Source: Isoetes taiwanensis | Taxonomy: Eukaryota; Streptophyta; Lycopodiopsida; Isoetales; Isoetaceae | Assembly: GCA_021234155.1 (NCBI GenBank) | Contig: JAJEKV010000003.1 | Span: 34,457,166-34,521,165 of the forward strand | Direction: 5' to 3' | DNA: 64,000 nt | In this document: in pieces, positions 8,756 to 58,470 of the stretch | Position numbering within the stretch: the first letter of the stretch is position 1 | Layout: each line of letters begins with the position of its first letter | Made by a program: the position numbers and the translations under genes | Notes under the pieces: generated by a model | Told to the model about the DNA's origin: nothing | Database searches by the model: none | The model's input: only the letters and a program-made list of their open reading frames with translations

Positions 8756-9195
8756 TCTTATATTATAATGTTTTAGTGCAAGTAATGGACCACGCCCTAA
8801 TGTGAACGGTTCGGATTGATCTACCCAACGGTGCAGATGATGCCACGTTAAATGCCTTTTTAGCCAAAAAAAAAGCAAAAAAAAGGGGTTTGGACGTATT
8901 ATCCTGCTCTGCTTCGTTGCGTAATACGGTCATTGCTATGGAATAGGTGGACCGTGCACAATGTTTTTGGCCGAACAGCGAGTAGATGGGTGGATCGTGC
9001 ACTGAAGATTTCATCAGTCTCTTCATCTAAACATAAACATGAGGAATTAATAACATATATAATGTTTAGGTTTGCTTCCTATGCGATCATCTTGACGTGC
9101 TGTAATTCTTAACGCACCTTTCGACCCTCATTGGAACTGCTTCAATCTCATATCCATGACTTTATCGCGAGAGCGTAAAAGGTGATGGCTCCAGG

Positions 9196-9684
9196 TTTGG
9201 GTTAATTGGGCGTTCCATTGTTTGCGAGAAATTGAAGGCCTTGAAAACATGTTTTACACCGGTTGGATTTATTGAAGTATATGCTTGGCACTCCAACGGC
9301 AAACGATCTCCGGGGTATGATCCTTTCTTTAATCATAACATGGAATGCTATGATTGGGTATTCTTTGTCACTTACGAGAAATAGGATAGTGCATTGCATG
9401 TTTTGAGCCATTGGTTTTTCAATCTATTTTGATCCGTTAGATAGGCGGTTGTTTTATCCGCTTTTGATTGGGGTTCAGGCTTCCTGATGCACATCCCATG
9501 CATTTCGGTCCTCAAACAACTCTCATTGAATCTGGCCGCTTAAATCATTTGGAGCCGTACTTTAAAAGGGCGGATGTGGGTTAATTGGGTGTTCCATCGT
9601 TTTGCGAAAATTACGTCCCGTGAAACGATCTCCGGGTATGATCCTTTCTTCAATCATAACATGGAATGCTATGATTAGGTATTG
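9196..9684. repeat. Internal direct repeat within the Helitron
   Basis: Two related segments (9196-9360 and 9576-9684) share GGTTAATTGGGYGTTCCAT, CGATCTCCGG and AATCATAACATGGAATGC. The second copy is shorter. Confidence 0.75.
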
Positions 9685-9832
9685 CCGTCCGTTAGAGATG
9701 GCAATATATTATTTTCAAAACATGTGAAGCCAAATGCGGTAACTTTTATTATCATGCTATGCATGTACAAGCTCTAGCAGGTCTAGGAGAAGGCAAGCTC
9801 TTTTGGCCGGGCATCACACGAAGTATAGGCGC

Positions 9833-10989
9833 CTCAAAGCAAAGGCTGCGTTGGACACTTGAACTTCATGGCGCTTTGTAAATTGGGTTGCTTAACTTGG
9901 TGGTTCATAAAGTAAGTATCAAACTGAAATTCATATAATTGCAAGCTTTGAATAGTTGAATCAAATTGCATTCTATGCTTGAAGAGAATCAAGTTGTCTC
10001 ATTCTTTACTTATCCTTCCTTTCCAATTTGTTTCTTTGTGCTCTTGAGTACGTCATATTTTAATCTATCGAAGCAACCCGGTATGCATGATATTATAAGG
10101 ACTCGATCCAAACCCAGGTGTGTAAAAATACAAATTGAAGGAGTTTTTAATTCTTAAATAGATATAAAGGTTAGAGTATGTGAGCGGACTTGGGGACCTG
10201 TAAACAAAATATGAAGTGACTTGGGATTTGTTATAAACAAAGTGCGGATGCAATGAAGCCGAGGCCAATGATTATATGCATCACTCTTACGCTATCGGAT
10301 ATTTGGTATATAATGCGAGCAACTCAAAAAGGAGTTTTGAGTATGATGGAGATGTAAATCTTACTATTTACCATATAAAGAGTCATTTGCAAGAAATGAT
10401 CTTTGTATTTACGCCAATTATACTTCCCATTTTGTATAATGATTTATTATGTTCTATTTGCGTAAATATCTTCTAACAAAATATTTCCCAACAACTCTCA
10501 ATGGTAATTAGGGATTGGCGACATCATGGCCGTTCCTTATTCATTTGTTGTTCATTGGATAATTACGTTGGGCATATGTTTGAAGGAAACCCCAAGCAAC
10601 CCAAAGGCGGGCCCTTTTGGATAATGCTGCATAAGTTACATTCCTAATTTCTTTTAATAAATGTAGAAAATGCTTTTTAGTTTAGAGTAAGGTACGTAAA
10701 TGACATAGTTTTGGTGAAGGGTTTTAATAAGTACATCTCTTTATTAAGTCATTTTATGCATGTTCCAGAGGGACACAAATAATAGAAGCATTGCGATTCT
10801 GATTGAAGTTCGAAGTGACTTCATGAGCAGCTTGAGGTAAGCTATAAAACAGTTGAAAATTTATTCCTCAAGGGATTACTGATTGGTTTGTGAAAACAAT
10901 TTGCCGTTCAAAGGCATTTACAAGTATTGAGGCTCAAGGAAAATATTTGCAAAAGATATTGGAAGAACAACAAAATGAACAAGATTCTT
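9833..10989 (+). pseudogene. Captured MYB-CC (PHR1/PHL-type) transcription factor fragment with introns
   Basis: Four exon pieces are in order. Exon 1 (9833-9911) reads QRLRWTLELH then, after a frame change, RFVNWVA and LGG, followed by GTAAGT; this is the first half of a GARP-type MYB domain. Exon 2 (10319-10392) reads ATQKGVLSMM then LTIYHIKSHLQ, the second half. Exon 3 (about 10790-10836) ends LHEQLE before GTAAGC. Exon 4 (10905-10989) reads VQRHLQ then IEAQGKYLQKILEEQQ, the coiled coil and LHEQLE-linked region that define MYB-CC proteins. Family members bind DNA and many control phosphate-starvation responses. Exon junctions fall where family genes have introns, so the capture was of genomic DNA, not cDNA. 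Stops and frameshifts in several exons make it non-functional. Confidence 0.88.
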
Positions 10990-10999
10990 AGCTCTATCT

Positions 11000-12480
11000 A
11001 GAGCCTAAATGGGTCAACAGAACATCCCGATTTAGATGTTGATGCTTTTGAACCAAGTTCAATTACTTTAGCCAAGGATGATTCTCTAACATTAGTGTTC
11101 GGTTGCTTGAGGCAAGGATGATTCTCCACCGTTAGTGCCTTTCTCATCTGCTGAAGGCGCATAAGAGGATGATGATAATCCAAAGGTGGTGGCATTGAAA
11201 ATTTGACAATGCAAGGAGTTTGCAAGCCTCCACCTTCTAAAAGATGCAAACTAGATGTGTGCGAGCCAAAATGGCGGTATAATATGGAGGGGGTGATACT
11301 GATTACACGAGTGATTATTACATGCATTTGTATCGGGCAATACCTACACAACATGGATCATTCGATTATCTTTGTGCATACCTCCACAAACAATGTTCTT
11401 AATGGTGTAGATCATGAATGAAGACCATTATAAGGAAGTGATGGCGGGGAAGATGAGCCCGTCATCAGGAATGGTTATTTGAGTTGCCCGAGATGAAGAA
11501 CACCCTTGAGAGCCCGAAATCTTGACAAGTTCTGACCCAATAAACTTCAAGTGGGGACTTTGCTTTTTGAAATTAGACCTCGCTTTGCTTCTTTTGCTTT
11601 TGCAAGATCATTAGAGCGTTCTTGGTTGAAGAACAAAAAATTGTGGAAAAGGTATTGAAGATTCACAAGGCAAAAGAAAAGCACTCGCTAAAGCACAAGC
11701 TTAAGTTCTGCTTGCTCATAGAAAAGTTGAATTGTCTTGCAGAAATAATTTTACCGAACTCATTTTGTAGTCAGTGCATTTTCCTCTTGATGACAAACTA
11801 CTTACAAATAAGGTGATACGCATTCAAAAAATTGAATTCTAAAAACATATAGACTCAGGCCAAATTTTCATTTTACTTGGAAAAAAAATGTAACTACAAG
11901 GGAGCATAAGTGTGCAAGAGATTTAAGAGGCATTTATAGTGGCCTTTAATATTTGGTTATTAATGTTTGTAGACATGGGTGGAATCTGGTATTTGCCATC
12001 CAATGCCCCTCACCCAAATATTATAACGAATTCCTTGAAAAGAAGACATAGGTAGAATCTGTTCCTTCAAATTTGCTATCAAATGGCCTTCATCGAAAAT
12101 AGTAAGAAAACCAAGTACAACGTATGAGGTTGATATTTTAAGATGATTTATTAACAATTTGTATTGTAGTGCTTTTAGGTTCTGTTGGGCCCAGCCTTGG
12201 GCCAGTACTTGAAGCATCTCTCAATCCCACTACCCGGTGAGACGCAGAGCCATTGTGGTATGATATGTGCCACTTTTAGCATGTGGCAATGTGGAGACCT
12301 AACAATTGCTATGAACAAGCATCATCCTATTCTACTCAAAGCTCTCAGATAGATACCGATGCAACACTATCTAACATGAAGGAGCTAGATGTCTTAAAGA
12401 CATTGTTATACCTTTGAAAAGTTTCCGCTATAATAAAAAATTAAATAGTTGGAATATTCCCGCAAGCTTTTCTTTTGCGA
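11000..12480. other. Helitron cargo of unknown origin
   Basis: The sequence after the MYB-CC coiled coil may include the C-terminal part of the same captured gene (for example KRCKLDVCEPKW near 11240 on the plus strand). The short frame at 11622-11816 is lysine- and glutamate-rich but not recognisable. No further family motif was found. Confidence 0.35.
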
Positions 12481-12535
12481 CCAAAAACTTACAGGCTCCA
12501 AACATATGCCCAGCAACGCTGGGCACCATTACTAG

Positions 12536-13737: not shown

Positions 13738-14311
13738 GATTCTGGTCATGTTCTGGTCATGTTCAACAAAACTGAGGGTGATGTAATGCAACCGGCATCT
13801 TACCATTTGACGCTCACTGTGCAACTCCGCAATCTAATGCTCACTTTTACGGGCAAAGCTGAAGCTGATTTTGCAGGAAAATATGAAGGTGCAGGGCGGA
13901 ACCTTTGCGAAACCTTTTCTGGCTGGCCAAACTCTTAGAATTTACTACCGAATTCACTCTCACTCTCAGTTCAAAATCAAAGGTAACGTTACCACCGAAT
14001 TCAGTTCCAATCGACGTCCACGTCCCATTCAATGATGCCTGGCATCACTGCTTAGGCACATTCACCGGTTCTGGCTCTGGTGCCTTTGCAGGTCCAGGTA
14101 TAGGTATACCTGACGGTACCTACAAGGGACCCGGCAAGTGGTCCGACCCCTTCCCGCTCCATCCCTGATTTTGATTTAGACAGTAGCTCTTTACCGTTAT
14201 AAGGTTTTCCCTACTGGGGTTTTTAATCCTGAATGGTAATTGTAGTAGTTATTTTGTCTAATAAATTGGTTTTTATGGAAGATAAAAAACATAAAATGTT
14301 CCTTTGATTTT
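13738..14311 (+). pseudogene. Unidentified gene fragment, unit copy 1
   Basis: This is the first of four related copies (others at 16094-16834, 17759-18623 and 23543-24403). The plus strand encodes MFNKTEGDVMQ-like and then GAFAGPGIGIPDG and KGPGKWSDP before a stop. A shared 3' sequence (CAGTAGCTCTTTACCGTTATAAGG onward, broken here for length) follows. I do not recognise the family. Copies 1 and 2 share about 550 bases. Copies 3 and 4 share a different upstream exon but the same C-terminal codons and 3' end. This copy lacks its start. Confidence 0.5.
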
Positions 14312-14669
14312 ATTTTTTTTTCGGAGGCAGATTTTTTATTAATAGAGAAATGAAAGTTAGAGATAAACAAAAATTACAGATAAACAAAATTACAAGACAC
14401 CAAAACGAAATTCACCTAATCCAACCTAGGCTAGAGAGTCATCATCACCATCTCTTCCTAGCTCGGCCCATGCACACTTGAAGTATTGGTAGAACCCACC
14501 CTTGCATGCGCCCACTATTCTCTGTCGTATGCTTCGCCAAATTTTTGCCTGCCATGAGAGAAACTTTATAGTTGAAGGTGGCTATAATTCTTCTGTGGTC
14601 TATTGGTTTTTGCCCCATTGCTACATCACCTTCCAACAGCACCAGAGTGCTACTGTAATCAGGGAGTCC
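14312..14669 (-). mobile_element. LINE fragment (3' end), unit copy 1
   Basis: This matches 21498-21900 of the longest LINE copy, with an internal deletion. It follows the unknown gene fragment exactly as the other LINE copies follow theirs. It diverges at 14670. Confidence 0.75.
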
Positions 14670-16093: not shown

Positions 16094-16834
16094 GTGGCGC
16101 TATTTCGCTCAAGGCATCCAATCGATATTGCTCCCAATTTCAGGTCAAGTAGAAGTTCATCTGATCTAGACAAGAATTCCGTCAAGGAGACTGCGGCTGA
16201 TGGAAAGCTGCTGAGTCAGGAGGTAGAATCTTTGGATGAGGGTGATAAAACTGATCATGAGAGGTCTTACCTAGCAACCGCCATGGTCATGTTCAACAAA
16301 ACTGAGGGTGATGTAATGCAACCGGCGTCTTATCATTTGACGCTCACTGTGCAACTCCGCAATCTAATGCTCACTTTTACGGGCAAAGCTGAAGCTGATT
16401 TTGCAGGAAAATATGAAGGTGCAGGGCGGAACCTTTGCGAAACCTTTTCTGGCTGGCCAAACTCTTAGAATTTACTACCGAATTCACTCTCACTCTCAGT
16501 TCAAAATCAAAGGTAACGTTACCACCGAATTCAGTTCCAATCGAGGCCCACGTCACATTCAATGATGCCTCGCATCACTGCTTAGGCACATTCACCGGTT
16601 CTGGCTCTGGTGCCTTTGCAGGTCCAGGTATAGGTATACCTGACGGTACCTACAAGGGACCCGGCAAGTGGTCCGACCCCTTCCCGCTCCATCCCTGATT
16701 TTGATTTAGACAGTAGCTCTTTACCGTTATAAGGTTTTCCCTACTCGGGTTTTTAATCCTGAATGGTAATTGTATTTGTCTAAATTGGTTTTTATGGAAG
16801 ATAAAAAACATAAGATGTTCCTTTGATTTTATTT
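16094..16834 (+). pseudogene. Unidentified gene fragment, unit copy 2
   Basis: The 124-codon frame at 16094-16468 starts MALFRSRHPIDIAPNFRSS, has an acidic and serine-rich stretch, and runs into the part shared with copy 1 (MFNKTEGDVMQPASYHLTL). It stops at SGWPNS. The next frame (16435-16698) ends GAFAGPGIGIPDG and KGPGKWSDP. Either an intron or a frameshift separates them. Copies 1 and 2 are nearly identical from about 16275. No known domain was recognised. Confidence 0.5.
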
Positions 16835-17758
16835 CATCATCAATGATGTCCTTTTACCAATCTTGAAGTCATAGTAAGTTGCATTTGGAAGCAACATAGG
16901 CACCGAAGCCTTACCTTTAGGATGACATTTCATTAAGTTATACTTGATAAACTACATGGCTGGGGATTCTACCCGCTGTAAGGCCCGCCAAACTTGCTTC
17001 GCTGCTAGAACTTGAGATTGAGTCCATAGGTCTTTGAGGCCTAGACCTCCATCACTTTTATTCCTGCATACTTCTGACCATGCTAGTTTAGGAAATCCTT
17101 CCCATAGAAACTATTATGTTGTTGTACTGCGTCTGAAGGAAAGAGCATCAGTAGATGTGACAAAAAACAATTGTCCCCAGGTAGCGAACTTGCAAGCCAA
17201 CGTGAATACCAAACACAACAGGATGTCATGTTTTGCCCATATTAATGGCAGCAATAATGATGTCATTTTTCCTTGGTGCCCTCCATGTGGTCTGGTGGCT
17301 AACCCAATTCCTAAAGTGGCCATTGTATAATCTTTCTATTATGCAGCCAACGTTAATGAGAGCAAAATCTTTCAGTAGCAGCAAAGTTGGAAAGATGAAA
17401 ATTGCAAAGTAATCTGGTGTATCAGCACCTATTAGCTTAGAAGCAGGAGGGTCATTGCTACATCCCGTAGGAAAAGCAAAATCTCCAATATGAGTGCCTA
17501 ATATAAGTGAAGGGAGCATTCGCAAACCAAATCCACACCGTAGTTCTTTCTTCCCTCATGCTGGCTGCACCAAAATTGCCCCTAGTTTAGGTTCTCATCT
17601 GCAAGTGGTTGACCTTCAGAAGTTGATACATCCTGTTTAGATCCCATGCTTATTGCAAAAATATGTCAAATCCAATCTGAAAGCATTTGTCAGAAACAAT
17701 GGCCCAATCTTTTTGCCCACAACTGGTTTTATTGCATTTTAACATCCAGAACATCACA
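16835..17758 (-). mobile_element. LINE fragment (middle part of ORF2), unit copy 2
   Basis: This matches 22608-23542 with many small indels. It lacks the 3' third that copy 3 retains: the unknown gene fragment's 3' end joins directly to CATCATCAATGATG. The minus-strand frames (17114-17525) are fragments of the region after the reverse transcriptase. It is bounded on the right by a Helitron-type TC end at 17759. Confidence 0.75.
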
Positions 17759-18623
17759 TCCTATATTATAAATTTTTAGTGTAAGTGTTGGACCCAGCCC
17801 TAAATCCAAAGGCTGGGATTTAGGGTTGAGAATTTATGGTTGAGATTTGGACACCTAGGAACCCTAAAATAAACAAAAAGGTCGTGAGGTTTTTTTTTTG
17901 CTATGGCGGCTAGCCTACTTTGCCACCAAACAGGGCCCTGTTTATGGTTGATCGTTTAAAAGTGCTCAAAAAAGAATGTGGATCAAGCGCCACATCTCTG
18001 GCTATGGCGACCAAAAAACCTTTTGCTCCTCCATTACTCTGTGCATAAATAGGGGAATATGGATCCAGCGGCTGCTCTTTTGTTTTGTCTCAGTTCGGCA
18101 CTAGGATGGGGACAGGCTACTATCCATCAACGGGAAAGCCGGGATCTCTTCAACCAAATGTATCAACGGCTTGGTTTTGGAATCAAGGGAGATTATCCTC
18201 TCTCTGCAGTGATTATGTCTAAATATTACAACACTAAAACCAGAGGCGCTTTTGTTGATGTGGTTTTCGCCATGCATGCAAGGAGTCGAATTCTCGTTAC
18301 CTGCGAGTTTGATTGTGATTTCATCAGGATTCAACATCGCATATTCAAGACCTCCCTTTTTCTTAGATCCAGGCGGTTGGGTCCACTGCCACAGAGGCAG
18401 ATTCTGGTGCCTTTGCAGGTATACCTGACGGTTCCTACAAGGGACCCGGCAAGTGGTCCGACTCCATCCCCCATCCCTGATTTAGACAGTAGCTCTTTAC
18501 CGTTATAAGGTTTTCCCTACTCGGGGTTTTAATCATGAATGGTAATTGTAGTAGTTATTGTCTAAATTGGTTTCTATGGAAGATAAAAAAACATAAAATG
18601 TTCCTTTGATTTTATTTTATTTA
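17759..18623 (+). pseudogene. Unidentified gene fragment with Helitron-like 5' border, unit copy 3
   Basis: It starts A|TCCTATATTATAAATTTTTAG, the same form as the Helitron 5' ends, so this unit probably derives from a plus-oriented Helitron whose 3' end is lost. The frame at 18059-18508 starts [19 protein letters not shown] and continues [19 protein letters not shown] and [19 protein letters not shown] frameshift near 18275 breaks it before the shared KGPGKWSDS ending. CATAAATAGGGG lies just upstream of the ATG. I do not recognise the protein. The second complete Helitron interrupts its 3' flank. Confidence 0.5.
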
Positions 18624-18897
18624 CTAGTAAAGGTGCCCAGCGTTGCTGGGCATAGGTTGGGAGCCTATAAATGTTTTGGCCGCAATGGAAAAAGCGTACA
18701 GTAATGATGGTGTCCAGAATTGTTGGGCTTTACTTAGTAGACGATACACACACATGTATTTTCTACACGCACACCCTTAAAACTGCGGATCTTGGCCAGC
18801 ACGAAACCTTGGCCTTCGGATTGCAGCATCAAATGTCAACCGTTGGATCACTTTTGTTGAAGACACTTTGATTGGACCACACAACTTCATAATATAT

Positions 18898-18930
18898 CTA
18901 GGAATAGTGCCCAGCATTGCTGGGCAAATA
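18898..18930 (-). mobile_element. Second, internal Helitron 3' terminus
   Basis: CTAGGAATAGTGCCCAGCAT then TGCTGGGC is a second hairpin-plus-CTAG terminus about 275 bases inside the complete element and in the same orientation. It may be an older 3' end that replication read through, or the remnant of a nested copy. Confidence 0.6.
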
Positions 18931-20520
18931 TTGTGAACATGTCAACAATACGTGGTCTTCATTCTTTTATCACACATGCAACCTTAATAACGATTTGCTA
19001 TAACCAAATGCATGTTAAACAAAAAGAGCATAAGTAGGTGTGTATATATGGTACTTTATTCACTTAAAGCAATGATAGAGAGAAACTTTAATAGTCATAT
19101 AGGAAGCAAGTTGGCATTGTTGATGGACTAAAGTTGGAACCCTTGTAACTAAATTTTTGTATGCTTTCTAAGCTAGATTGTTGTTGAGAAATATGTGTAT
19201 GTTCCAAATATCTAAGTTTAAATTTTTAGCATATGAACTGTACGTTATAACTATGCAATGCTATTGCATTTTTTAAGGACCTTGTTTCCCCTTGCATTGA
19301 AAAAGTTTCCCCTTGCACTGAAGAACAGGATGATTGAGAAAGAAGTTATTGATCTGCCGTGTGTAGAGGTCTTAGGATTGAAAAGGGTTAATGATTTCTT
19401 TTCTTTTATTTCATTCGTTAGTTTATTTTTAGTTTATTTTTATTCCGTTGAATCTAGACACACATTATCCACTTTGTCTAACATTATCACATAGAAATGA
19501 GCATCATGGGGAAAATGGTGTAAATCATCTCTAAGAGTAGTTGCAACAACAACAACAATTGCCGATTTTACAACTAAGGGGCGGGGCTTTCACATACTTA
19601 TGCTTCTTGCAACAAAGATGGGAACTTGCAATCCTTCTTTTCATTTTTTTCTAAAAGGTCGGCATCTAGACCAGACCCATGATGATTTACCGATGAAAAT
19701 AAGAACGTCATCTTCTTGAAGATCCAAGCACTAAACTTTGCTTAATAATAGAAGTCAACCGATAAGAACCTAACAGAGCTAGGAAGCAAAGAGAAAGCAT
19801 AGAATGAACCAATATCATATTGGTTCTAAGCAGAAACAACTGTAATTGCAACAAAGGATCATGTTATTGGAAAGCTTAAACCAAGCCCGACACATGCCAG
19901 AATCGCATGCGTTTATTCAATAGATTGGTTGGTAAATGGTGGAAAATATGACGTCTCTGCAAACATATATTGTGTATAACTCTGTTTTCAGAGGCAAAAA
20001 GCATGGTCATGTATCCGATAAGTGACTCACCTAGTACTCCTTTGCTGGATCAATAAGTGTACTAAAATTTACCTTGCCCATTCATGTTTTAAAAAATCTG
20101 GACTGCAAACCCTAGGATGATCTTGCTCTCCATACTGTGCAATACATAATAAAAATGTGACTTTTGCAGCAAACACATTAGACGGTGTTAAAAAACTTGT
20201 TCTTTCCATGCTTCCACATTTCATGTGCATGTTTTAGCTGGATACACGCAAATCCGCATAATAGAACCTTTGCAGATGCTTGATGTCAACATGTTGTTCG
20301 CCTTTCCTGCACCAAGCAATAACTCCAAGCTAAAGTTTGTTAAGAATAAACAGGGCAAAACTTTAAACGACATACATTGTAACAATCAATCATGCCATGT
20401 GGGTTTCATATGCTCTGTTCCAATCCCTGTTCCCCAAAAGAGGTTGGGCATAAAAACCCTATGCACAAAATCCAAATTCTTCAAATAGTATCTGGCCTTA
20501 AGAAAGAATCCGAAATAAAA

Positions 20521-20714
20521 CTATCTAACTAAACTCAAGACTTGAGAGATGCTGCCTTCAAAAATGCGAAATGTGTGAATTGTCCGATCCTTGCACTTGC
20601 TCCGCCAAGCAAACCCAATCGTATTCATGATCTTAGGAATTAGAGCAACACAAAACCATACATTGACCTCTTCTTGCCACAACTCTCTGAAGAGTTCAAA
20701 AGTTAGACTCAACC
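20521..20714 (-). pseudogene. Captured exon 2 of unidentified gene
   Basis: On the minus strand a splice acceptor (TCCTTGCAG) precedes an open stretch reading SLTFELFRELWQEEVNVWF and ALIPKIMNTIGFAW. It lies downstream of exon 1 at 21002-21079. The reading looks like real coding sequence with no stops for about 60 codons, but I cannot name the family. Confidence 0.45.
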
Positions 20715-21001
20715 CTGCAAGGATTACCGTCAAAACTTATTACAATTCCCATGCTCAAGTACTTTAAATTCTACATATCCAAGCTCCGGATCCATGTGCA
20801 GTTCAAGGCAATATTAAGAGATTAAAAACTTACTTCAAATTTCGACCCTCAGATTCACTCAAGCATTAAGGCATGAATTCAGCTCTGTGAATTCTCATTC
20901 AGAGTATGTGAAGCCGAATTTGAAGAAATGGATGGTGCCTGAAAGACATGAATGAAGCTAAAATTAAACCACGAAGCTTCAAAGAAGTACGCATTCTTAC
21001 C

Positions 21002-21079
21002 TTCAATCTTGAATGCTAAATCGTCGTGGCACGGCATAGCGGAAGAGTCACCTAAGCGGCGAAGAGGTGCGGAGGCCAT
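21002..21079 (-). pseudogene. Captured first exon of unidentified gene
   Basis: An ATG at 21079 opens MASAPLRRLGDSSAMPCH and DDLAFKIE, then the donor AAG|GTAAGA. The upstream sequence looks like a 5' untranslated region or promoter and lies between the exon and the Helitron 5' end. Exon and element share orientation, so the gene's own promoter could have been captured. Function unknown. Confidence 0.45.
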
Positions 21080-21497
21080 CTTGAACTCGAAGTATATGAG
21101 TAGGACTGACGGAAGGACGGCGGAAGATGGGTGATGAGAGAAAAATCCACCGATCTGACTCCAGCTCGGCTGTTTGGAGGGCGGCATTTACGGTTTGCTG
21201 CTGCAATTCATATGGAGTAGCGGCGGATCCTTCAAGTTACCATCGCCCGACATCTTTGTTTGGCTGTCCATAAACCTCCCTTGTTCTTTTAACACAAGCG
21301 TAAATACGCCATCGCCTCCTAGCACCCGGCTTCGCCTTCTCTCTCAATGTGTTAGGGTTTTGGAGAACCGCCTTGAAGCCATATCGAAAGGAGATGGAAC
21401 AAAATCGTGGCCGTCAGATCTTGGCCGAAATGATCCACGCCGTCCGATTTAGGGCGATATGCACAACGGACAAACACTATAATTTTATAATATAGGA

Positions 21498-23542
21498 TTT
21501 ATTTTATTTTTTTGGAGGCAAGATGTTTAGATTTTTTATTAATAGAATGAAAGTTAGAGATAAACAAAAATTACAGATAAACAAAATTACAAGACACCAA
21601 AACAAAATTCACCTAGTCCAACCCAGGCTAGAGAATCATCATCACCATCTCTTCCTAGCTCGGCCCATGCACACTTGAAGTATTGGTAGAACCCTTGCAT
21701 GCGCCCACTATTATCATATTCTACATGCATTTTGCTTAGCCTAATTTTTGCACGCCATGAGGAGAAACTTTATAGTTGAAGGTGGCTATAATTCTTCTCC
21801 TGGTCTATTGGTTTTGCCCCATTGCTACGTCACAGCGGTGCTTCCAACAGCGCAGTGCTCTTATGTCGGGGAGCCCATCACTTTAGTACATTTGATCATT
21901 GCAATCCGTGGCCATTGCATGTCATTGATCGAAATTCCCAAGATGGCCGCTGCCCAATGCCAAAACTGATTGATACGGGGGCAGAAGAGCATATGGTCGA
22001 TGCTCTCTGCTTTAGAACATCCTAACGGGCAGCCCACAATTTTCCTTTTGTATAAACGGGTGAGAGTTGGCAATCCTTCCTGCCATAACAGCCACTTAAA
22101 AGTCTGAATCTTTTTGGAGCACCAGGAGTTCCAGCAGTGCACTAGCTGAGGTAAAAGTTCGTCCTGATCCAGCCCCAAACTCCCTGTTACTTTAAACGGT
22201 TCCCTGACTAGCATTAACTTGTACAGAGTTTTGACCTTGTAACCCTTGCACTCCATGCCTTTCTCATCTTTTAAGATCCATGTCTCTGTTGTTCCAAGGG
22301 TTCCTGACACCACATCTATCCTTCTGATAATTGTCTTGTACAGCCTTCTATTTGTGAATGTGTCTCCCACTTTATTCTTTATCACTGACCATGAGATCCA
22401 TCTGTTGTGTTCCAAAGATCAGAGGTCGTTGAGGATATGAATCCCTTTAGTTTGCCAGATTGAGGCTGATTTAGGATGTACCATAGCAAGAGGAGCTCCA
22501 TCTTTGTTGCCGACATGCTCATTCCAGAAGAGTGAATGGGCACCTGTTTCCCAAGGCAGATCCTTGAGCCTGAACCACTTTGAGACCTTTTGCCATGCTG
22601 CTAGCAAATATCTCATCATCAATGATGTCCTTTTACCAATCTTGAAGTCATAGTAAGTTGCATTTGGAAGCAACATAGGCACCGAAGCCTTACCTTTAGG
22701 ATGACATTTCATTAAGTTATACTTGATAAACTGCATGGCTGGGGATTCTACCATTTGTAAAGCCCCGCCAAACTTGCTTATTTGCTAGAACTTGAGATTG
22801 AGTCCATAGGTCTTTGAGGCCCTAGACCTCCATCACTTTTATTCACCGCATACTTCCTAACCATGTTAGTTTAGGAAATCCTTCCCATAGAAACTATTAT
22901 GTTGTTGTCTTTAGCGTCAAGGAAAGAACATCGATAGATGTGACAAAAACAATTGTCCCAGTGTGGCGAACTTGCAAGCCAGCGTGAATGCCAAACACAC
23001 CAGGATGTCATGTTTTGCCCATATTAATGGCAGCAATAATGATGTCATTTTTTCCTTGGTGCCCTCCATGTGTGCATTGGCTAACCCAATTCCTAAAGTG
23101 GCCATTGTATAATCTTTCTATTATGCACCAATGTTAATGAGAGCAAAATCTTTTCGATAGCGTTAAAGTTGGGAAGATGAAAATTGCAAAGTAATCTGGT
23201 GTATCAGCACCTATTAGCTTAAAAGCGGAGGGTCATTGCTACATCCCGTAGGAAAAAGCAAAATCTCAATATGAGTGCCTAATATAAGTGAAGGGGAGCA
23301 TTACATAAACCAAATCCACACACCGTAGTTCTTTCTTCCCTCATCTTTGTTTGCACCAAAATTCCCCTAGTTTAGGTTCTCATCTGCAAGTGGTTGACCT
23401 TGAGGTTGATACATCCTTTTAGATCCCATGCTTATTGCAAAAATATGTCAAATCCAATCTGAAAGCATTTGTCAGAAACAATGGGCCAATCTTTTTTGCC
23501 CACAAACTGGTTTTATTGCATTTTAACATCCAGAACATCACA
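21498..23542 (-). pseudogene. LINE (L1-type) ORF2 C-terminal half, longest copy
   Basis: The minus strand reads in fragments, 5' to 3' from 23542: RT-thumb-like region (FLWEG-type motif near 22890), GLxxKDLWTQSQVLA near 22820, then the long frame 22754-22419 (WFRLKDLPWETGAHSLFW), then 22415-21861 with KTLYKLMLV, FKWLLWQEGLPTLTRLYKR and the zf-RVT motif GCPLGCSKAESIDHMLFCP. This is the post-RT region and zinc-binding domain of plant L1-like retrotransposons. A frameshift near 22417 and several stops break it. The RT catalytic part and ORF1 are missing. Its 3' end abuts the unknown gene fragment, as in copies 1 and 4. Confidence 0.85.
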
Positions 23543-24403
23543 TCCTACATTATAAATTTTTAGTGTAAGTGTTGGACCCAGCCCTAAATCCAAAGGCTGG
23601 GATTTAGGGTTGAGAATTTATGGTTGAGATTTGGACACCTAGGAACCCTAAAATAAACAAAAAGGTCGTGAGGTTTTTTTTTTGCTATGGCGGCTAGCCT
23701 ACTTTGCCACCAAACAGGGCCCTGTTTATGGTTGATCATTTAAAAGTGCTCAAAAAAGAATATGGATCCGGCGGCCACATCTCTGGCTATGGCGACCAGA
23801 AAACCTTTTGCTCCTCCATTACTCTGTGCATAAATAGGGGAATATGGATCCAAATTTTGCTCTTTTCTTTTGTATCAGTTCGGCACTAGGATGGGGACAG
23901 GCTACTATCCATCAACGGGAAAGCCGGGATCTCTTCAACCAAATGTATCAACGGCTTGGTTTTGGAATCAAGGGAAATTATCCTCTCTCTGCAGTGATTA
24001 TGTCTAAATATTACAACACTAAAACCAGAGGCGCTTTTGTTGATGTGGTTTTCGCCATGCAAGGAGTCGGAATTCTGCATGGTACGCGAGAGTTTTGATT
24101 GTGATTTCATCAGGATTCATCATCGCATATTCAAGGCCTCCCTTTTCCTTAGATCCAGGCGGTTGGGTCCACTGCCACGAGGCGGTCGATGCCTTTCTGG
24201 GTATACTGCCGGTTTCTACAAGGGACCCGACAAGTGGTCCGACTCCATCCCTCATCCCTGATTTAGACAGTAGCTCTTTACCGTTATAAGGTTTTCCCTA
24301 CTCGGGTTTTTAATCCTGAATGGTAATTGTAGTAGTTATTGTCTAAGTTGGTTTCTATGGAAGATAAAAAACATAAAATGTTCCTTTGATTTTATTTTAT
24401 TTA
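23543..24403 (+). pseudogene. Unidentified gene fragment, unit copy 4
   Basis: This is nearly identical to 17759-18623, including the TCCTACATTATAAATTTTTAG border after A. The frame from 23844 reads [19 protein letters not shown] and continues as in copy 3 to [12 protein letters not shown], where frames break. The plus-strand 3' part encodes GPDKWSD-like residues in another frame. Its 3' flank carries the Helitron empty site at 24403/24404. Confidence 0.5.
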
Positions 24404-24607
24404 TTTATTTTATTTTTTTGGAGGCAAGATGTTTAGATTTTTTATTAATAGAATGAAAGTTAGAGATAAACAAAATTACAAGACACCAAAACGAAATTCA
24501 CCTAGTCCAACCTAGGCTAGAGAGTCATCATCACCATCTCTTCCTAGCTCGGCCCATGCACACTTGAAGTATTGGTAGAACCCTTGCATGCGCCCACTAT
24601 TATCATC
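24404..24607 (-). mobile_element. LINE fragment (3' end), unit copy 4
   Basis: This matches 21498-21713 with a short deletion and ends at TATTATCAT. Beyond 24607 the sequence is new. Confidence 0.8.
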
Positions 24608-25431
24608 TTATATTCCATTCCTAGCAGCCGCTGCAGTGGTATACATCAACAAAAGTTGTTCACGGTTTCCCAAATTGCCTTGGTTTAGCTTCCTCTGCTC
24701 TTCGTGACTTCTACACTCAACATTAAATTTCATCAACATAAAAGTTCTATCATAAATCTAGGACCCAATTTAATACTGCAAAGAAAAAGAATATATGACG
24801 GTAATGAAAAGTATTAATAGAGAAGCATGCGCTGCAGCAAGTTCCGGAAGGAGATCTGCTAAAGTAGCGTGATGCTTGGACAAAAATACGGTAAGGTTAA
24901 GCCCTAAGGATTTAAATGCCACATGGCAGAATAGTAATCCAAGAGATCCGATATAGTTCCAGGAAATGAATAGACCCACGACCAAGTACTTACCTCGAAA
25001 GAAAATCCACAAAAAATTGAAGATACAGGCAGCGCCCTTGGACGACTGTAACCAAGAAGATGAAGAAAGAAGCCGGTGTATTATAGAAAAGGATACTCCA
25101 GTAAGAGTGCTTGCCCTAATCGGGCTAAACGTACTTGCTTTAAGCTTTTCTGAAAATCGCATAGCATCCACAGATAGACCTTGATGAAGCTATTGCTATG
25201 CCGGATTTGGTCTTTTTGCATCATATGGAAATGTTGACGCCTTCAAATCTACCCTCAGATCCCAAAACCTTGCTGCAAAGTGAGAAGAGTCGACGTGCTG
25301 CACTTCGGCTGATGGAAGAAATAAGAAGCATTAAAACGTGGAATTTGTTGGGACCGTTCGATCTAGTTTGGTCGTTCATGGGCGTTAGATCTAGGGCAGG
25401 ATACAACACCCTATAACATTATAATATAGGA
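24608..25431 (-). mobile_element. Helitron fragment with 5' end only
   Basis: On the minus strand it starts TCCTATATTATAATGTTATAG at 25431 (written here in part), with T next on the plus strand, so it has the family's 5' end. No hairpin-plus-CTAG end is found to the left. Cargo includes an exon-like minus-strand stretch (about 25175-25000) ending at the donor GAG|GTAAGTAC, and an arginine- and serine-rich frame (25221-25409, MLLISSISRSAARRLFSLC) that could be a targeting peptide. Neither was identified. Confidence 0.55.
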
Positions 25432-44042: not shown

Positions 44043-46414
44043 TGGGTGAAGTCCAATCGCCTGACTGCCCGAATGGCCTCTACCCTCTTTGGAGAAATTG
44101 ACCCTTGGTCCGTCTCTTGGGGTATGGCCTCTACCCTCCCTTGAGGCCTCCACGCAAAGTCCTGGACTCGTTCGGATTGGGGAAGGGTGCCGCCCAACAA
44201 CAAAGTACCGGGGCCCGGGCGGTGTGTTGGCACCCTTGCCCTTGCCGGATCCGGCCCAGACCTTGCACCGCGTGTCCTTGCGTAGAGGGAGGATTTGGCG
44301 CTTGAAGGCGGAACCTTTAAAACCACGTAGGGGCAGCTTTGCCCGCGCCCTCTCCCAAAGGCCCTCGACGACTGACGGGCAGCTTCCCTCGCCTGTTGCG
44401 AACCGACCGTTCCAATGGACTCGACGCCCGATTATGCGAGGGGACCAAGGCTTGGACTGGGTTCGGTGGAAAGGGTGTCTTGGCCCGGCAAAGCGGCCCG
44501 CAGACGGGGCGGGTGTGTTTGCATTCCTGCCCTTTTCCGATCCGGCCGGGACCTTGGTACGCGTCCTCGCTGGGGAGGGATGTTGACGCTTTAATACGGA
44601 ACCTTAAAACCACCCTCGAGGGGCTTGTCCCAGCCGCCCCTCCCCAAAGGCCGCCACGACGGACGAGGATTTCCCCTTCGGAACCGCCGAACCGACCGCT
44701 TCCAATGGACTCGAACGCCCAAGATTATGCGTATTACCAAGTTTCATGCGTAGACCACCCCATCTCCAAGAAGCTCCAAGCCTCATATCCAAAGACTCGT
44801 GAGTCAATTGGCTTGGGAGGTGGTCAGTGGAATACCGCCATGTGTGGCGCTCGTGTTCCCTTTTTTGGAGAAATTGACCGTAACCTGGTCACTAGGGTAA
44901 TGCCGCCATTCCGACATAATGGCGAAGTCGAATCGCCATTCCGGAGACCCACGACTGCCCGAATGGCAAGACCCTTTGATTTTCGCACAACCGGGCTCAA
45001 AGCACGCCAAGGTTTGGCAAGCTCGGCGACGAATCTTGAATTTTTTGGAACCTGCCGGGCGGGGCCATTGAAAGGAGGATGATGAACCGAGCCGGGAGGG
45101 ATGGCATTCGCATGGCTCCACCTGAGGAGCGGCAAGTCACGGGCTCCCTCGAACTTTTTGGGGTCCGCCTCTTGGGGTATGGCCTCTACCCTCCCTTGAG
45201 GCCTCCACGCAAAGTCCCGGACTCGCTCAATTGGGAAGGGTGCCGCCCAACAACAGGCCGGGGCGACCCGGGCGGGTGTGTTGGCACCCCTTGCCCTTGC
45301 CTGGATCCGGCCCAGACCTTGCACCGTGTCCTTCGTAGAGGGAGGATCTTGGCGCCGAAGATCTGGAACCTTAAAAACCCGTGGAGGCAAATTGTTCTCA
45401 ACGCCCTTCTCCCAAAGGCTCCCCGACGGCGGGCAGCTTCCCCAGCCCTGGGACTAGGAACCGACTGCTCCAATGGACTCGGAAACGCCGCATTATATGG
45501 GGGACCAAAGGCTTGACTCGTTCAATTGGGAAAGGGTGCCGCCTATCAGAACCGGGGCCGGCGGGTGTCGGCACCCTTGCCCTTCCCGATCCGTCTGGAC
45601 CTTGCATAGTGTCCTCGCCTAGAGGGAGGATGTTGACGCTGAAATACGAACCTTTTAAAACCACCCCGGAGGCAGTTTGTCCCGAAGCGTCCCTCCCCAA
45701 AGGCCGCTGACGACGGACGCGCAGACTTCCCGCCCCCCTTCTCCGAAGCCTTGACCGAAATGTTCCAACTGGACTCGAGCAGCTGATAGTGCACAGTTAC
45801 CAAGTTTCAGCGTAAGACCACCCCATCTCCAAGAAGCTCCAAAGCCTCTTATCCAAAAGACTCCACAGTAGTCAATTGGCTTGGGAGGTGGTGGCTGAAT
45901 ACCGCCATGTGTGGCGTTAGCGTGTTCCCTTCTTTGGAGAAATTGACCGTAAACCTGGTCACTAGGTAATGCCGCCATTCCTGACATAATGGCGGTCGAT
46001 CGCCATTCGTCATTCCCCACACCCAATAGCAAGACCCTTGGATTTTTCGCCTGACAACCGCCAAAGCACGCTACGGTTTGGCAAGCTCTGTAGGACGGAT
46101 CTTGAATTTTGGAACCCTCGCTGAAGGGGGCCATTGAAAAAGAGGATTCAACGGCCAGATAGACGAACCGAGGCCGGAGGCGGGCATTCGTCTGCGGCTC
46201 CCCGAGGAGGTGGCAAGTGCAGGCTTCCTCGGGAACTTTTTTGGGGTCCGTCTCTTGGGGTATGGCCTCTACCCTCCCTTGAGGCCTCCACGCAAAGTCC
46301 TGGACTCGTTCGAATTGGGGAAGGGTGCCGCCCAACAACAGGCAGCCGGGACGGGGGGGCGGGTGTGTTGGCACCCTTGCCCTTGCCGGATCCGTCCAGG
46401 ACCTTGCACCGTCC
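44043..46414. repeat. GC-rich 1.07-kb satellite array, left part
   Basis: The landmark CTTGGGGTATGGC recurs at about 44117, 45172 and 46254 (periods about 1055 and 1082). Each unit has two related halves of roughly 500 bases, both holding TTCCAATGGACTCG, GAGGGAGGAT, CCCAAAGGC and GGTGTGT-GGCACC blocks. One half holds GGAGAAATTGACCGT and the hairpin GCCATTCCGACATAATGGC. Base composition is far more GC-rich than the surroundings. Open frames here change between units, so they are not genes. Units differ by many one- and two-base indels. Confidence 0.9.
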
Positions 46415-50740: not shown

Positions 50741-51155
50741 CTAAGATTTTTGCCATATATATCGCATACAATTTCAAACGAAGTGAAGTAGAACCATAGC
50801 CATACTTGCAAGATTACCCCGCAGAGCCATATCAAATCATTGCCGAATACCCGGATCACTATAGGCAAAATTAGGGAAACTATTTTGGAATGAATGGATT
50901 GTATAGTCGCCTTGGTAATCTCCGAATCCATGGCCGAGCAAACCCACCCCAATCTTTTGGGAAGCAAAGCAAAACCATAGGGCCATAGCCACAAAAACCA
51001 TTTAACCCTAATAATACGCCCAAACCCCTTTTTTATGCTTTTTTTAGCTAAAAAGGCTTTTAACGTGACATCATCTACACCGTTGGGTAGATTAATCCGG
51101 ACCGCCCAATTTAGGGCGCGGTGCACTACTTACACCAAAACATTATAATATAAGA

Positions 51156-52976: not shown

Positions 52977-53529
52977 TCACACAGCTTCACTACTTCAACC
53001 GCTTCCCCAAGATAAATTTATAACGGCATCGTCGCTTGGAACTTCAACTAATCAAGCTTGATTTCATGGATGTATTACCATTTGTAATACCATATGATGC
53101 AAAAACAATAATTTTTCATTCAAGCAGTTTGTTCAACTGTCTCCCAATGTCTTTTAAGGTCAATTAGGATGTTTAGCCAAAATGGTTGTGAAATAACAAA
53201 TTTTTTGTCTTCTATAACAACCAATATAAATGTTCTAAGGGATAAGATACAAAAGCGTCTAATTTTATCATATGAGTTTGCCCCATAATAAATCTTTGGC
53301 TTTCAGTAGTGGTCCTTTTCCCTCTAAAATGAGATATTTTTCTTTGTTGTTCTTCTCCTTAATGTTAAGTCTTCCTAAAATGTCTGTTTTCATAAGCAGT
53401 TTTATAAATCTTTAGACACAAGATAGTAAAAGAGTCCTTTTTAGGGGTATTTTAGAATTTTGTAAATTTTTAGAAGGAATCTTTCAAACGCACTTCTTAA
53501 ATAAGTGCGTTTCATTTTAAACCTTGTTG

Positions 53530-56500
53530 TCCTTGCGTAGAGGGAGGATCTTGGCGCCGGAGACGGAACCTTTAAACTCCATGGAGGAGGCGGTTTGCCC
53601 TCAACGCCCCTCTCCCAAAGGCCCCGACGACGGACGGGCAGCTTCCCTGCCCCAGAATTGCGAACCGACCGCTCCAATGGACTCGGAACGCCGGGCATTA
53701 TGCACGGGGACCAAGGCTTGACTCGTTGAATTGGGAAAGGGTGCCGCCCAAAGAACATGCGGCCGGGGACGGGGGCGGTGTGTGTTTCGGCACCCTGCCC
53801 TTTCCGATCCGTCGGGGCGTTGCGTCCCTCGCCTAGAGGGAGGATGTTGACGCCGATCGGAACCTTAAGACCACCCGGAGGCGGCTTGTCCCGAGCGTCC
53901 TCCCCAAAGGCCTTGACGACGGACGGGCGACTTCCCCTTCTCGGGGACCGCCAACCGACGTTCCAATGGACTCGAACGCCCGGCATTATGCGGGTTTACC
54001 AAGTTTCGGGCAGAAGTCCACCCCATCTCCAAGAAGCTCCAAAGCGCCTATCCGGCCTCGTAGTCAATTGGCTTGGGAGGTGGGCGTGGAATACCGCCAT
54101 ACGTGTTGCGTGTTCCCTTCTTTGGAGAAATTGATCGTGTAACCTGGTCACTAGGAGTATCTACCGCCATTCCGGACATAATGGCGAAAGTCAATCGCCA
54201 TTCCGAGACCCCCGACTGCCTAAATGGCAAGACCCTTGGATTTTTCGCTGCTTCGTCAAAGCACGCCAAGTTTGGCAAGCTTCTACGGACGGATCTTGAA
54301 TTTTTGGAACCCGTTCGAGCAGGGCCATTGAAAAGAGGATTCAACGGCCAGATAGGCGAACCAGCTTCGAGGATCGGCATTCGCACGGCTCCACCCGAGG
54401 AGCCGGTGGCGTGAGGCTCCCTGAACTTTTTGGGGTCCGGCCTCTTGGGGTATGGCCAGGCCCCTCCCGCCCCTGAGGCCTCCATGCAAAGTCCTGACCT
54501 GCTCGAATTGGGAAAGGGTGCCCAACAACAAAAGCGGCCGGGGCCAGGGGGCGGGGTACCCTTGGCACCCTTGCCCTTGCCGGATCCGTCGAGGACCTTG
54601 CACTGCGTGTCGTCCCGCGTGAGAGGGAGGATCTTGACGCCTTAAGACGGAACCTTAAAACCACGTGGAGGCGGAAGTTGCTCAACGTCCCTCCCCAAAG
54701 GCCCCGACGACGGACGGCAGCTTCCCCGCCAGAATTGCGAACCGACTATTCCAACGGACTCAGAACGCCGGCATTATGCAGGGGACCAAGGCTTGGACTG
54801 CTCAATTGGGAAAGGGTGCAGCCCGGCAGTGGCGGCGGGGCGGGCGGGTGTGTGGCCCTGCCCTTTTCTGGATCCGGGTCCGGGACCTTGCACGTGTCCT
54901 CGCCTAGAGGGAGGATGTTGACCTTGTGAATGGAACCTTAAAACCACCCGAAGCGGCTTTGTCCCCAGCCCTCCCCCAAAGGCCGCGACACCGGACGGGC
55001 AGCTTCTTCCCTCAGAATCAAACCGACTGTTCCAATGGACTCGAATGTGCCTAGGCATTATGCGAGGTTACCAAGTTCAAGGGGTGAAGACCACCCCATC
55101 TCTAAGAAGCTCCAAAGCGCCTCATATCCAGCACTCCTGTAGTCAATTGGCTTGGGAGGTGGCTGTGGAATACTGCCATGTGTGGCGTTCGTGTTCCCTT
55201 CTTTGGAGAAATTGACCGTGTAACCTGGTTACTAGGGTAATGCCGCCATTCCGGACATAATGGCGAAGTCGAATCGCCATTCCGGAGACCCCGACGTCCG
55301 AATGGCAAGACCCTTGATTTTTCGCTGTAACCGCAAAGCACGTCATGCTGTTTGGCAAGCTCTGCCGGACGGATCTTGAATTTTTTGGAACCTGCTCGAA
55401 GCAGGGCCATTGAAAAGAGGATTCAACGGCGAGATAGACGAACCAACGGGGAGGCGAGGGCATTATTTCGCACGGCTCCCACGGGAGGAGGTGGCGTCGC
55501 TCCCCTGAACTTTTTTGGGGTCCGCCTCTTGGGGTATGGCCCCTCTACCCTCCTTGAGGCCTCCCATGCAAAGTCCCCGGACTCGTTGAATTGGGAAGGG
55601 TGCCGCCCAACAACAAAAAATGGGACCAGGGCAGGTGTGTTACACCCTTGCCCCGCCGGATCCGTCCAGGACCTTGCCGCGTGTCCTTAGCGTAGAGGGA
55701 GGATCTTGACGCCAGAAGACGGAACCTTAAACCACGGGGAGTGTTTCTTGCCCTAACGTCTCTCCCAAAGGCCCCGACGACGGACCGGGCGGCTTCGCCC
55801 CGAACCGAACTGCTCCAATGGACTCGAACGCCCAAGATTATGCAGGGGACCAAGGCTTGACTTGCTCGAATTGGGAAAGGTGCTTCGGAACGAGGGGGCC
55901 GGGCGGTGTGTCGGCACCCTTGCCCTTCCGGATCCGTCCAGACCTTGCAATGTTGTCCTCGCCAGAGGGAGGATGTTGACGCCTATCACGGAACCTTAAA
56001 AACCACCCGGAGGCGCTTTTGTCCCGAGCGTCCCTCCCCAAAGGCTCGTGATCCTTGAAGATCGCCCAATGGACCTGAAACGCCCAAAGATATGCAAGGG
56101 TTACCAAGTTTCACAAGGCAGAAGACCACCCCATCTCCAAGAAGCTCCAAAGCGCCTGATATCCAGCACTCCTGTAGTCAATTGGCTTGGGAGGTGGCTG
56201 GAATAACCGCCATGTGTGGCGCTCAGGTTCCTTCTTTGGAGAAATTGACCGTAACCCGGTCACTAGGTAATGCCGCCATTCCCGACATAATGGCGAAGTC
56301 GAATCGCCATTCCGAGACCCCGACTGCCCGAATGGCAAGACCCTTGGATTTTCGCGACAACCGCCCAAAGCACGCCATGGGTTTGGCAAGCTCGGCGACG
56401 GATCTTGAATTTTTGGAACCCGCTCGGAAGGTGGGCCATTGAAAGGAGGATTCAACGGCCAGATAGACGAACCGAGCTTCGGGAGGGCGGGCATTCGCGT

Positions 56501-58470
56501 ACGGCTCCACGGAGGAGCGGTGGCAAAGACGGGCTCCCTCGAAAACTTTTTGGGGTCCGCCTCTTGGGGTATGGCCCCTACCCTCCCTTGAGGCCTCCAC
56601 GCAAAAGTCCTCGACTCGCTCCCATTGGGGAAGGGTGCCGCCCAACAACAAAATGGCCTGGGGGGGGGGGGTGTTGGCACCCTTGCCCTGCCGGATCCGG
56701 CCCAGGACCTTGCAACCGCGTGTCCTTGGCGTGAGGGGGAGGATCTTGACGCCGAAAGACGGAACCTTAAAACCACTGGGGAGGCGCTTTGCCCCGACGC
56801 CCCTTCCCAAAGGCCCGACGACGACGGGCAGCCTCCCGCCCAGAATTGAACCCCACGGTTCCAATGAACTTCGAACGCCGGGCATTATGCGAGGGGGACC
56901 AAGGCTTGGACTCGCTACTGGGAAGGGTGGTGCCCGCCTAAAGAACCGGGGCCGGGCGGCGGGTGTTCTACCCCTGTTCTTCCGGATCCGGCCCAGACCT
57001 GTAATGCTGTCCCCGCCTAGAGGGAGGATGTTGACGCCAGAATCGAACCTTAAACCCACCCGAGGCAGTTGTCCCGCGAGCGTCCTCCCCAAAGGCGCTG
57101 ACGGCCGGACGGCGGACTTCCCTTCGTAATCAGCGAACCGATTTCCAATGGACTCGAGCCGCAGGCATATGCAGGTTACCAAGTTTCAGCGGGCAGAAGA
57201 CCACCCCATCTCCAAGAAGCTCCAAAAGCCCTCATATCCGGCACTCCTCAGAGTCAATTGTGGCTTGGAGGTGGGCTACGGGAATCTTGCCATGTGTGGC
57301 GTTCGTGTTCCCTTCTTTGGAGAAATTGACCGTGTAACCCGGTAACTAGGGTAATGCCGCCATTCGGACATAATGGCGGTTCGAATCGCCATCCCGGAGA
57401 CCTCGACCGCCCGAATGGCAAGACCCTTGATTTTTCGCACAACCGCCCAAAGCATGCTTCGCGGTTTGGCAAGCTCACGGACGGATCTTGAATTTTTGAA
57501 CCTCGCCGAGCGGGGCCATTGAAAGGAGGATTCAACGGCCGATAGATGAACCGAAAGCCCGGGGGGGCGGGCATTCGCAAGCACGGCTCCGCGGAGGAGC
57601 CGGGTGGCGTCGGGCTCCCTCGAACTTTTTGGGTCCGTCTCTTGGGTATGGCCTCTACCCTCCCTTGAGGCCTCCACGCAAAGTCCCCGGACTCGTTTTG
57701 AATTGGGGAACAACAAGCGGCCCGGGGGGGTGTGTTGGCACCTTGCCCTTTCCGGATCCGGCCCAGACCTTGCACCGTGTCCTTGCGTAGGGAGGATCTT
57801 GGCCAAGACGGAACCTTTAAAACCACGGGGAGGCAGCGCCCTCAACATCCTCTCCCAAAGGCCCTCGACGACGGGGCCAGGCAGCTTCCGCCCCCTGCAT
57901 TGCAAAACCGACTTTTTCAATGGACTCGAACGCCGGGTTATCGCGGGGACCAAGGCTTGGACTTCGTTGGTTGGGAAAGGGTGCCACCCGACAAATGTAC
58001 GGACGGGGGGCGGTGTGTCGGCACCCTTGCCCTTTCCTCGATCCGTCCCAGGACCTTGCAATGTCCTCACCTAGAGGGAGGATGTTGACGCCGGTCACGG
58101 AACCTTAAAACCACCCGAGGCAGTTGTCCCGGCGCCGCCCCCCCAAAGGCCGCTGACGACGGACGCGCAGCTTCCCCTTCTGAATCGCGAACCACCGTTC
58201 CAATGGACTCAGAACGCCGGCATTATTGAGGTTACGAAGTTTCGCGGGCAGAAGACCACCCCATCTCCAAGAAGCTCCAAAGCGCCTCATATCCAGCACT
58301 CCTGTAGTCAATTGGCTTTGGCTGTGGAATACTGCCATGTGTGGCGCTCATGTTCCCTTCTTTTGGAGAAATTGGCCGTGTAACCTGGTCACTAGGGTAA
58401 TGCTGCCATTCCGGACATAATGGAGAAGTCGAATCGCCATTCCGGAGACCCCTGAGGAGGCGGATTGTTC
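53530..58470. repeat. GC-rich 1.07-kb satellite array, right part
   Basis: This continues the left array in the same orientation and phase: it resumes at GTCCTTGCGTAGAGGG where the left part stopped. The landmark CTTGGGGTATGGC (CTTGGGTATGGC in the last unit) occurs near 54443, 55529, 56563 and 57640, periods about 1086, 1034 and 1077. About 4.6 units are present. The many frames (up to 319 codons on the minus strand) differ from unit to unit because of indels and are not genes. Confidence 0.9.

Follow-up and report, generated by a model that had tools for sequence, protein, structure and literature searches.

A composite, non-autonomous Helitron with two stacked 3′ termini in Isoetes taiwanensis and the head-to-tail orientation of Helitron junctions in its genome

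Canonical plant Helitrons, as described for the maize elements of HelitronFinder (PMC2267711) and the wheat Xuan-Feng elements (PMC13286980), start with TC, end with CTAG, occupy A|T targets without target duplication, carry a 16–20-bp hairpin located 10–15 bp from the 3′ end, and include non-autonomous members beside those that bear RepHel. The element from Isoetes taiwanensis that we describe here shares these traits but differs from the canonical plant elements in having two stacked 3′ termini. Related arrangements are in print: PMC2267711, PMC4778049, and PMC5148889 between them report Helitrons that abut head to tail, bypass of the terminator, 3′ ends formed de novo, and composites attributed to self-insertion.

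The element was studied within a window of 64,000 nucleotides (the whole stretch of DNA that was analysed), in which it occupies positions 18624–21497 of the minus strand and is 2,874 bp long. An initial annotation, made from the sequence alone, had placed a second Helitron on the opposite strand here; its coordinates proved exact, and every terminal feature that could be tested is present. Read on the minus strand, the element begins with TCCTATATTATAAAATTATAG and ends with GCCCAGCAACGCTGGGCACCTTTACTAG. Its 5′ terminus, TCCTATATTATAA (21485–21497, −), carries the 5′ TC and adjoins a host A, and its outer 3′ terminus, GCCCAGCAACGCTGGGCACCTTTACTAG (18624–18651, −), is the end in use and adjoins a host T. 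The 3′ end is CTAG, at 18624, where Helitrons have CTRR and usually CTAG. The outer hairpin has an 8-bp stem and a 3-nt loop and lies 10 nt from the 3′ end, where a hairpin of 16–20 nt at approximately 10–15 nt is expected; its DNA fold has a z-score of −3.78, and 0 of 200 shuffled sequences were equally stable. Comparison with the empty site places an A before the element and a T after it, with no target-site duplication. Note that one base is ambiguous, because the final A of the left flank is also the last base of the element on the plus strand, and this base was assigned by the TC/CTAG convention. Exact hairpin-plus-CTAG ends occur three times in the window (shuffle mean, 0.00), and 5′ 13-mers with no more than one mismatch occur seven times, compared with 0.16 expected by chance.

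Six open reading frames of the element were compared with Pfam, and none gave a match that reached a curated cut-off, so that the element is non-autonomous. Matches to DUF4024, MIT_ATG1, and Rep3_C fell below threshold and were taken as chance. A missing RepHel is compatible with, and does not exclude, membership among the Helitrons. The earlier description of the element as complete is accurate from end to end but does not extend to coding content, and the structure is a composite with two 3′ termini. Helitron2/Helentron elements, described in part in PMC5148889, insert at T|T targets and are bounded by short, asymmetric terminal inverted repeats, with a hairpin either at each end or at the 5′ end. 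This identity was rejected for the present element, which has an A|T target, a 3′ CTAG, and, in the parts examined, a hairpin at the 3′ end only. With its termini, a gap-free empty site, and two other full-length copies at 92% identity, the element is very probably a non-autonomous canonical Helitron1-type composite of two modules, here called A and B, that was inserted at A|T after the host region had duplicated.

The left host flank (16830–18623, +) is 93.5% identical to 22609–24403, and the right host flank (21498–21717, +) is 91% identical to 24403–24606, both in the next copy of the host unit. Position 18623 was joined to 21498 and aligned with this sister unit, whose empty site lies at 24391–24421 (+). 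The alignment contained 0 gaps and 0 extra bases at the 24403/24404 junction, the two discrepancies that the initial annotation had named as grounds for abandoning the exact empty site that it proposed. The same annotation had proposed dating the insertion after duplication of the host unit, and this order is upheld by the presence of the element in one unit of the pair and of the exact empty site in the other. Divergence between the host units (K2P 0.064 over 1,985 sites) is uneven, with the left side at 0.069 and the right at 0.015. A third unit, at approximately 14102–14640, also lacks the element; its T-rich tract is altered, and hence it does not constitute an exact empty site.

The host unit itself bears a Helitron-type 5′ terminus at 17759–17771 (+), which recurs with one mismatch at 23543–23555 (+) and has the family signature TTTTAGTGTAAGTGTTGGACCCAGCCCTAA downstream. 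No 3′ end matching this terminus was found within the window. It may represent a truncated older Helitron, with the studied element nested inside it. The host unit also contains a retroelement remnant, an open frame at 21864–22418 (−) with a reverse-transcriptase zinc-binding domain (zf-RVT, E 5.7e-9).

The first Helitron of the window (8756–12535, +) has the same type of 3′ end as the studied element, and the junction of its empty partner near 1262 is gap-free. The two were said to match at both ends. Approximately 70 bp are indeed shared at the 3′ end (87%), with no match listed beyond that stretch, but the first Helitron begins with TCTTATATTATAA, which is one base different from the 13-mer given for the 5′ end. 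A second copy of the studied element (G000 C1034:34454599–34457409, 92%) lies mostly to the left of the window and reaches it with its 5′ end (1–244, −). Its empty site is at 870–1163 (−); the joined flanks of this copy are 94.7% identical to window positions 1163–870, with no gap at the 1065/1066 junction; a single gap, of 2 bp, falls within a run of T 8 bases from it. An empty partner thus lies within the window for each of three elements that are inside it or reach into it, and the claim that independent empty sites make the family robust is strengthened by the further one for the 92%-identical copy. Additional 5′ ends of the family are present at 25419–25431 (−) and 51143–51155 (−), and a relaxed scan of the window found no 3′ partners for them. 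Elsewhere in the window, GC-rich (∼58%) blocks at 44107–46412 and 53525–58452 contain repeats ∼1.05 kb apart that are 74–92% alike, and a 320-aa open frame inside them had no Pfam match at E 0.01.

Module A comprises element positions 1–2600 (2,600 bp; 18898–21497, −) and closes with its own hairpin and CTAG. This inner 3′ terminus, GCCCAGCAATGCTGGGCACTATTCCTAG (18898–18925, −), is absent from the initial annotation, and the DNA fold of its last 47 nt has a z-score of −3.08. Module B, the 274-bp 3′ module (18624–18897, −), opens with ATATATTATGAAG right after the inner CTAG and is found behind several differing upstream sequences. The A|B fusion, in which the inner CTAG is followed by ATATATTAT, exists in eight copies, namely the studied element, L001, L002, and L004–L008, with L008 carrying ATAG in place of the inner CTAG. 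The base after the outer 3′ end is T in all eight. The 5′ ends of the studied element, L001, L003, L005, L006, and L007 are preceded by A, that of L002 lies directly after the CTAG of another Helitron, and that of L008 was not found. Because eight copies share the same fusion, the composite moves as one unit from the 5′ end of A to the 3′ end of B. Moreover, the empty site lacks both modules and has no 5′ fragment of B beside it, which indicates that A and B arrived together. A 33-bp gap removes the inner hairpin from L001 and L002; the hairpin is also missing from L008, imperfect in L005–L007, and intact in L004 and the studied element. An intact inner hairpin is thus no bar to bypass in at least two copies, and inner-hairpin loss fails to explain bypass in either of them.

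Relatives of the separate modules were also recovered. Elements in C103 and C31 share ∼80% identity with A, end in a 3′ terminus at the corresponding place, and lack module B; they are probably duplicates of one insertion, because their flanks are shared. The C103 copy is inserted, in the same orientation, in the 5′ end of another Helitron between TCCTA and TATTATAATG. What precedes module B varies: in L013 it is the 3′ end of a different Helitron, in L014, L016, and L017 it is a hairpin-like stretch, and in L018–L027 module B is the terminal part of a longer repeat, without a hairpin ahead of it. We did not take module B to be an independent mini-Helitron, as its relatives start with TATATTATAAAG after various upstream sequences and a TC start was present in 0 of the loci read. 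Comparison of L001 with L002 revealed differences of 16.8% at element positions 201–400, 10.8% at 401–700, and 8.1% at 1301–1600, and a difference at 1 of 1,040 compared sites at positions 1801–2874. Dating of the insertion from whole-element K was rejected in view of this uneven divergence; the copies are mosaics, and dating by whole-element divergence is therefore unsafe. The alternation of near-identical and 8–19% diverged stretches in L001, L002, and element positions 201–700 suggests recombination or template switching among related Helitrons.

We counted Helitron ends and their junctions by exact pattern on both strands of the whole genome. The 3′-end pattern GCTGGGCAN6CTAG, which excludes G at flank position 14, matched 5,705 times (9 for the reversed-pattern control), and the 5′-end pattern TCYTATATTATAA matched 7,315 times (control, 454). 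Exact head-to-tail junctions, CTAG|TCYTATATTATAA, number 145 (control, 0), where random A|T targeting predicts ∼0.2, an expectation that uses a number of A|T sites extrapolated from the window. When 0–30 bases were allowed between the two ends, 188 matches were obtained, the 145 included and a few sites counted more than once. By the same exact-pattern count, head-to-head junctions number 0 genome-wide; with a spacer of 0–30 bases they occur at 7 loci, none of which has a spacer of 0. One of these loci has a 2-base spacer, so that near-perfect palindromes are evidently neither lost in assembly nor overlooked by the tool. Because AT is palindromic, a plain AT preference would yield both orientations, and the one-sided count suggests that a directional feature is recognised.

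Other arrangements of Helitron ends were encountered in the same searches. The doubled 5′ start TCYTATCYTATATTATAA (TCYTA|TCYTATATTATAA) has 413 exact matches in the genome, compared with 9 for the reversed pattern, which seems to exceed what nested insertion at that offset explains. The corresponding right-hand junction, CTAG|TATTATAA, accounted for just 8 of 100 places, the first of 703. At five of the 40 head-to-tail junctions that were read (L041, L043, L057, L061, and L067), the 3′ end of an inverted Helitron, preceded by A, breaks the downstream Helitron 18–25 nt in from its 5′ terminus. A stretch at G000 C1:815274–830596 holds five to seven TCTTATATTATAA ends in one orientation, ∼2.4–2.7 kb apart, suggesting a tandem array of a Helitron-bearing unit.

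The history of the studied site could be read in other ways. An element present in only one of two host units either arrived after the duplication or was lost without a scar from the other copy, and we regard scarless loss as the less likely. Helitron excision has been proposed in maize (PMC2267711) and rice (PMC4683698), and the unit at 24403 might accordingly have been occupied once and then vacated by precise excision or deletion. The junction is nevertheless gap-free and scarless, two further elements of the window have equally clean empty partners, and precise loss in every case is a less simple account than insertion, which leaves former occupancy of this unit very unlikely. An even slimmer chance attaches to the suggestion that the two 3′ termini were assembled at this site by sequential insertion, with B arriving first and A then entering the 5′ end of B. 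Same-orientation insertion into the 5′ terminus of another Helitron does occur, as in L009 between TCCTA and TATTATAATG, but the same A|B fusion is found in seven other copies, and the left flank at the studied site is the sequence of the empty site, with no remnant of TCCTA.

The head-to-tail junctions likewise admit more than one origin. Arrays of this kind have been termed reminiscent of rolling-circle concatemers (PMC5876387), and concatemers have been proposed in bats, as reported in PMC2267711, so that repeated rolling-circle rounds of one element might have produced them. However, 40 junctions that were read from among the 145 (taken from the head of 100 listed in contig order, with some skipped, and thus not a random sample) join 38 distinct upstream/downstream pairs when compared outside the conserved 45 bases. 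Most of them would therefore be separate events between different elements, and a concatemeric origin appears quite improbable. A somewhat better, though still small, chance can be given to the amplification of a few composites as units, by which head-to-head pairs could not be multiplied; the studied element, with its eight copies, is just such a composite. The 38 distinct pairs among 40 read leave little room for this process, with the same reservation that these junctions come from the head of the list and not from a random draw. On this pattern, oriented insertion at 5′ ends already in place is favoured, rather than concatemer formation.

Target flanks were compared with the 5′ end of the element itself. 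At the family level, T is the first base of 99 of 100 listed 3′ flanks, and A is the last base of 18 of 20 fetched 5′ flanks, the two exceptions being duplicates of one another; C is present at −2 in half of these 20. For shuffle tests, 3 duplicates, 1 non-T flank, and 19 flanks resembling other Helitron ends were removed from the 100 to give 77, and a strict set was reduced by 13 more to 64. The 77 flanks exhibit position-specific bias, with a summed divergence of 1.11 compared with a maximum of 0.63 in 2,000 shuffles. At flank positions 4–10, the match to TATATTA, the sequence of the element's own 5′ end in that register, is 3.56 of 7 compared with 2.73 after shuffling (z 6.0; strict set, z 4.5; 0 of 2,000 shuffles as high), and other registers from 1 to 7 gave 2.2–3.0. 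When the 5′ end of the element was scored by log-odds against the flank matrix (76 flanks), permutation gave a weak result (P 0.05 and 0.12; for the strict set, 0.17 and 0.30), and the 3′ flank of the studied element, TAAATAAA, is a misfit to the 5′-end-like motif. Some of the signal could also stem from old, decayed 5′ ends of Helitrons that remain in the flank set. The partial resemblance of target flanks to the element's own 5′ end is, as a pattern in sequence, suggestive only.

Candidate sources of the enzyme are present elsewhere in the genome (1.66 Gb), where 150 matches to Helitron_like_N were scored of 1,813 candidates. A 994-aa open frame in C23 combines a PIF1 helicase with part of Helitron_like_N; downstream of it is the 3′ end GCCCAGCAACGCTGGGTACCGTTACTAG, which is of the same type as that of the studied element and is followed directly by the 5′ end of another Helitron; this RepHel-bearing element is delimited at its 3′ end alone. 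Because of the shared terminus type, we tie the RepHel of C23 to the studied element, and judging from this likeness the RepHel relatives of the genome are a plausible source of its enzyme.

These considerations can be assembled into a model. RepHel, presumably supplied in trans by such relatives, would nick at the 5′ TC, and unwinding would continue past the terminator of A and halt at that of B. The released strand would be inserted at A|T, with rolling-circle copying assumed from membership among the Helitrons. A 5′-end-like sequence would guide target choice, such that the 5′ terminus of another Helitron would be an ideal target. In circle junctions, the CTAG of a Helitron is joined to its own TC, as described in PMC5876387; here the incoming CTAG would be joined in trans to a resident TC, in the manner of circle closure. 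The resulting head-to-tail stacks, all in one orientation, could in turn move as composites that have an extra 3′ terminator, as the studied element would have done. We put forward only tentatively, and with somewhat less than an even chance of being right, the central proposal that the Helitron enzyme picks targets by its own 5′-end rule (A followed by TNNTATATTA), that a resident 5′ end serves as its best target, and one that is orientation-specific, and that joining of CTAG to TC in trans gives rise to stacks and composites.

The locus provides a clean, datable insertion for which the sister unit displays the pre-insertion state. It is also a natural case of terminator bypass with an intact inner hairpin, and as such is informative about whether the hairpin by itself is enough to stop transposition. 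The excess of head-to-tail junctions (145 exact versus 0 head-to-head, with mostly distinct pairs among the 40 read) addresses a question that the literature leaves open, namely whether Helitrons that abut one another arose as concatemers or by insertion, and what their order of arrival was. If target choice copies 5′-end recognition, Helitron landing sites would be partly predictable, and stacking would account for new 3′ ends of Helitrons. Such a rule, if true, could be tested with purified RepHel protein and short DNA targets.

A full-text literature search (papers, as distinct from reference repeat databases) returned 0 papers with the 5′ 13-mers and the hairpin sequence. The orientation count and the target resemblance were likewise not found in literature searches, whose coverage mostly excludes subscription papers, and their novelty is unproven. 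The maize Helitrons No.1 and No.2 (PMC2267711) resemble the junctions described here, in that CTAG is followed directly by TC, the elements differ, and no concatemer is involved. As presented there, they are one pair whose order is unclear, whereas the present genome has 145 junctions, 38 distinct pairs among 40 read, and 0 in head-to-head orientation. For Helraiser/Helibat, PMC4778049 describes the creation of new 3′ ends by bypass of the existing one, as well as an AT-rich target that is strongest on the 3′ side, both as seen here. A target resembling the element's own 5′ end was not met in the parts of that paper that were consulted. The natural bypass example given there is missing its palindrome, whereas the studied element retains an intact inner hairpin, and its downstream terminator, unlike that of Helraiser/Helibat, is another Helitron-type end, the resulting fusion having been amplified. 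The composite FoHelis of Fusarium (PMC5148889) offer a further parallel, in that self-insertion is proposed to yield multi-terminus elements; as described, these are Helitron2-like elements that combine a single 3′ terminus with several 5′ termini, whereas our element has one 5′ terminus, two 3′ termini, and Helitron1-like ends. The studied element belongs to a known kind, and its composite structure has precedents among these systems.
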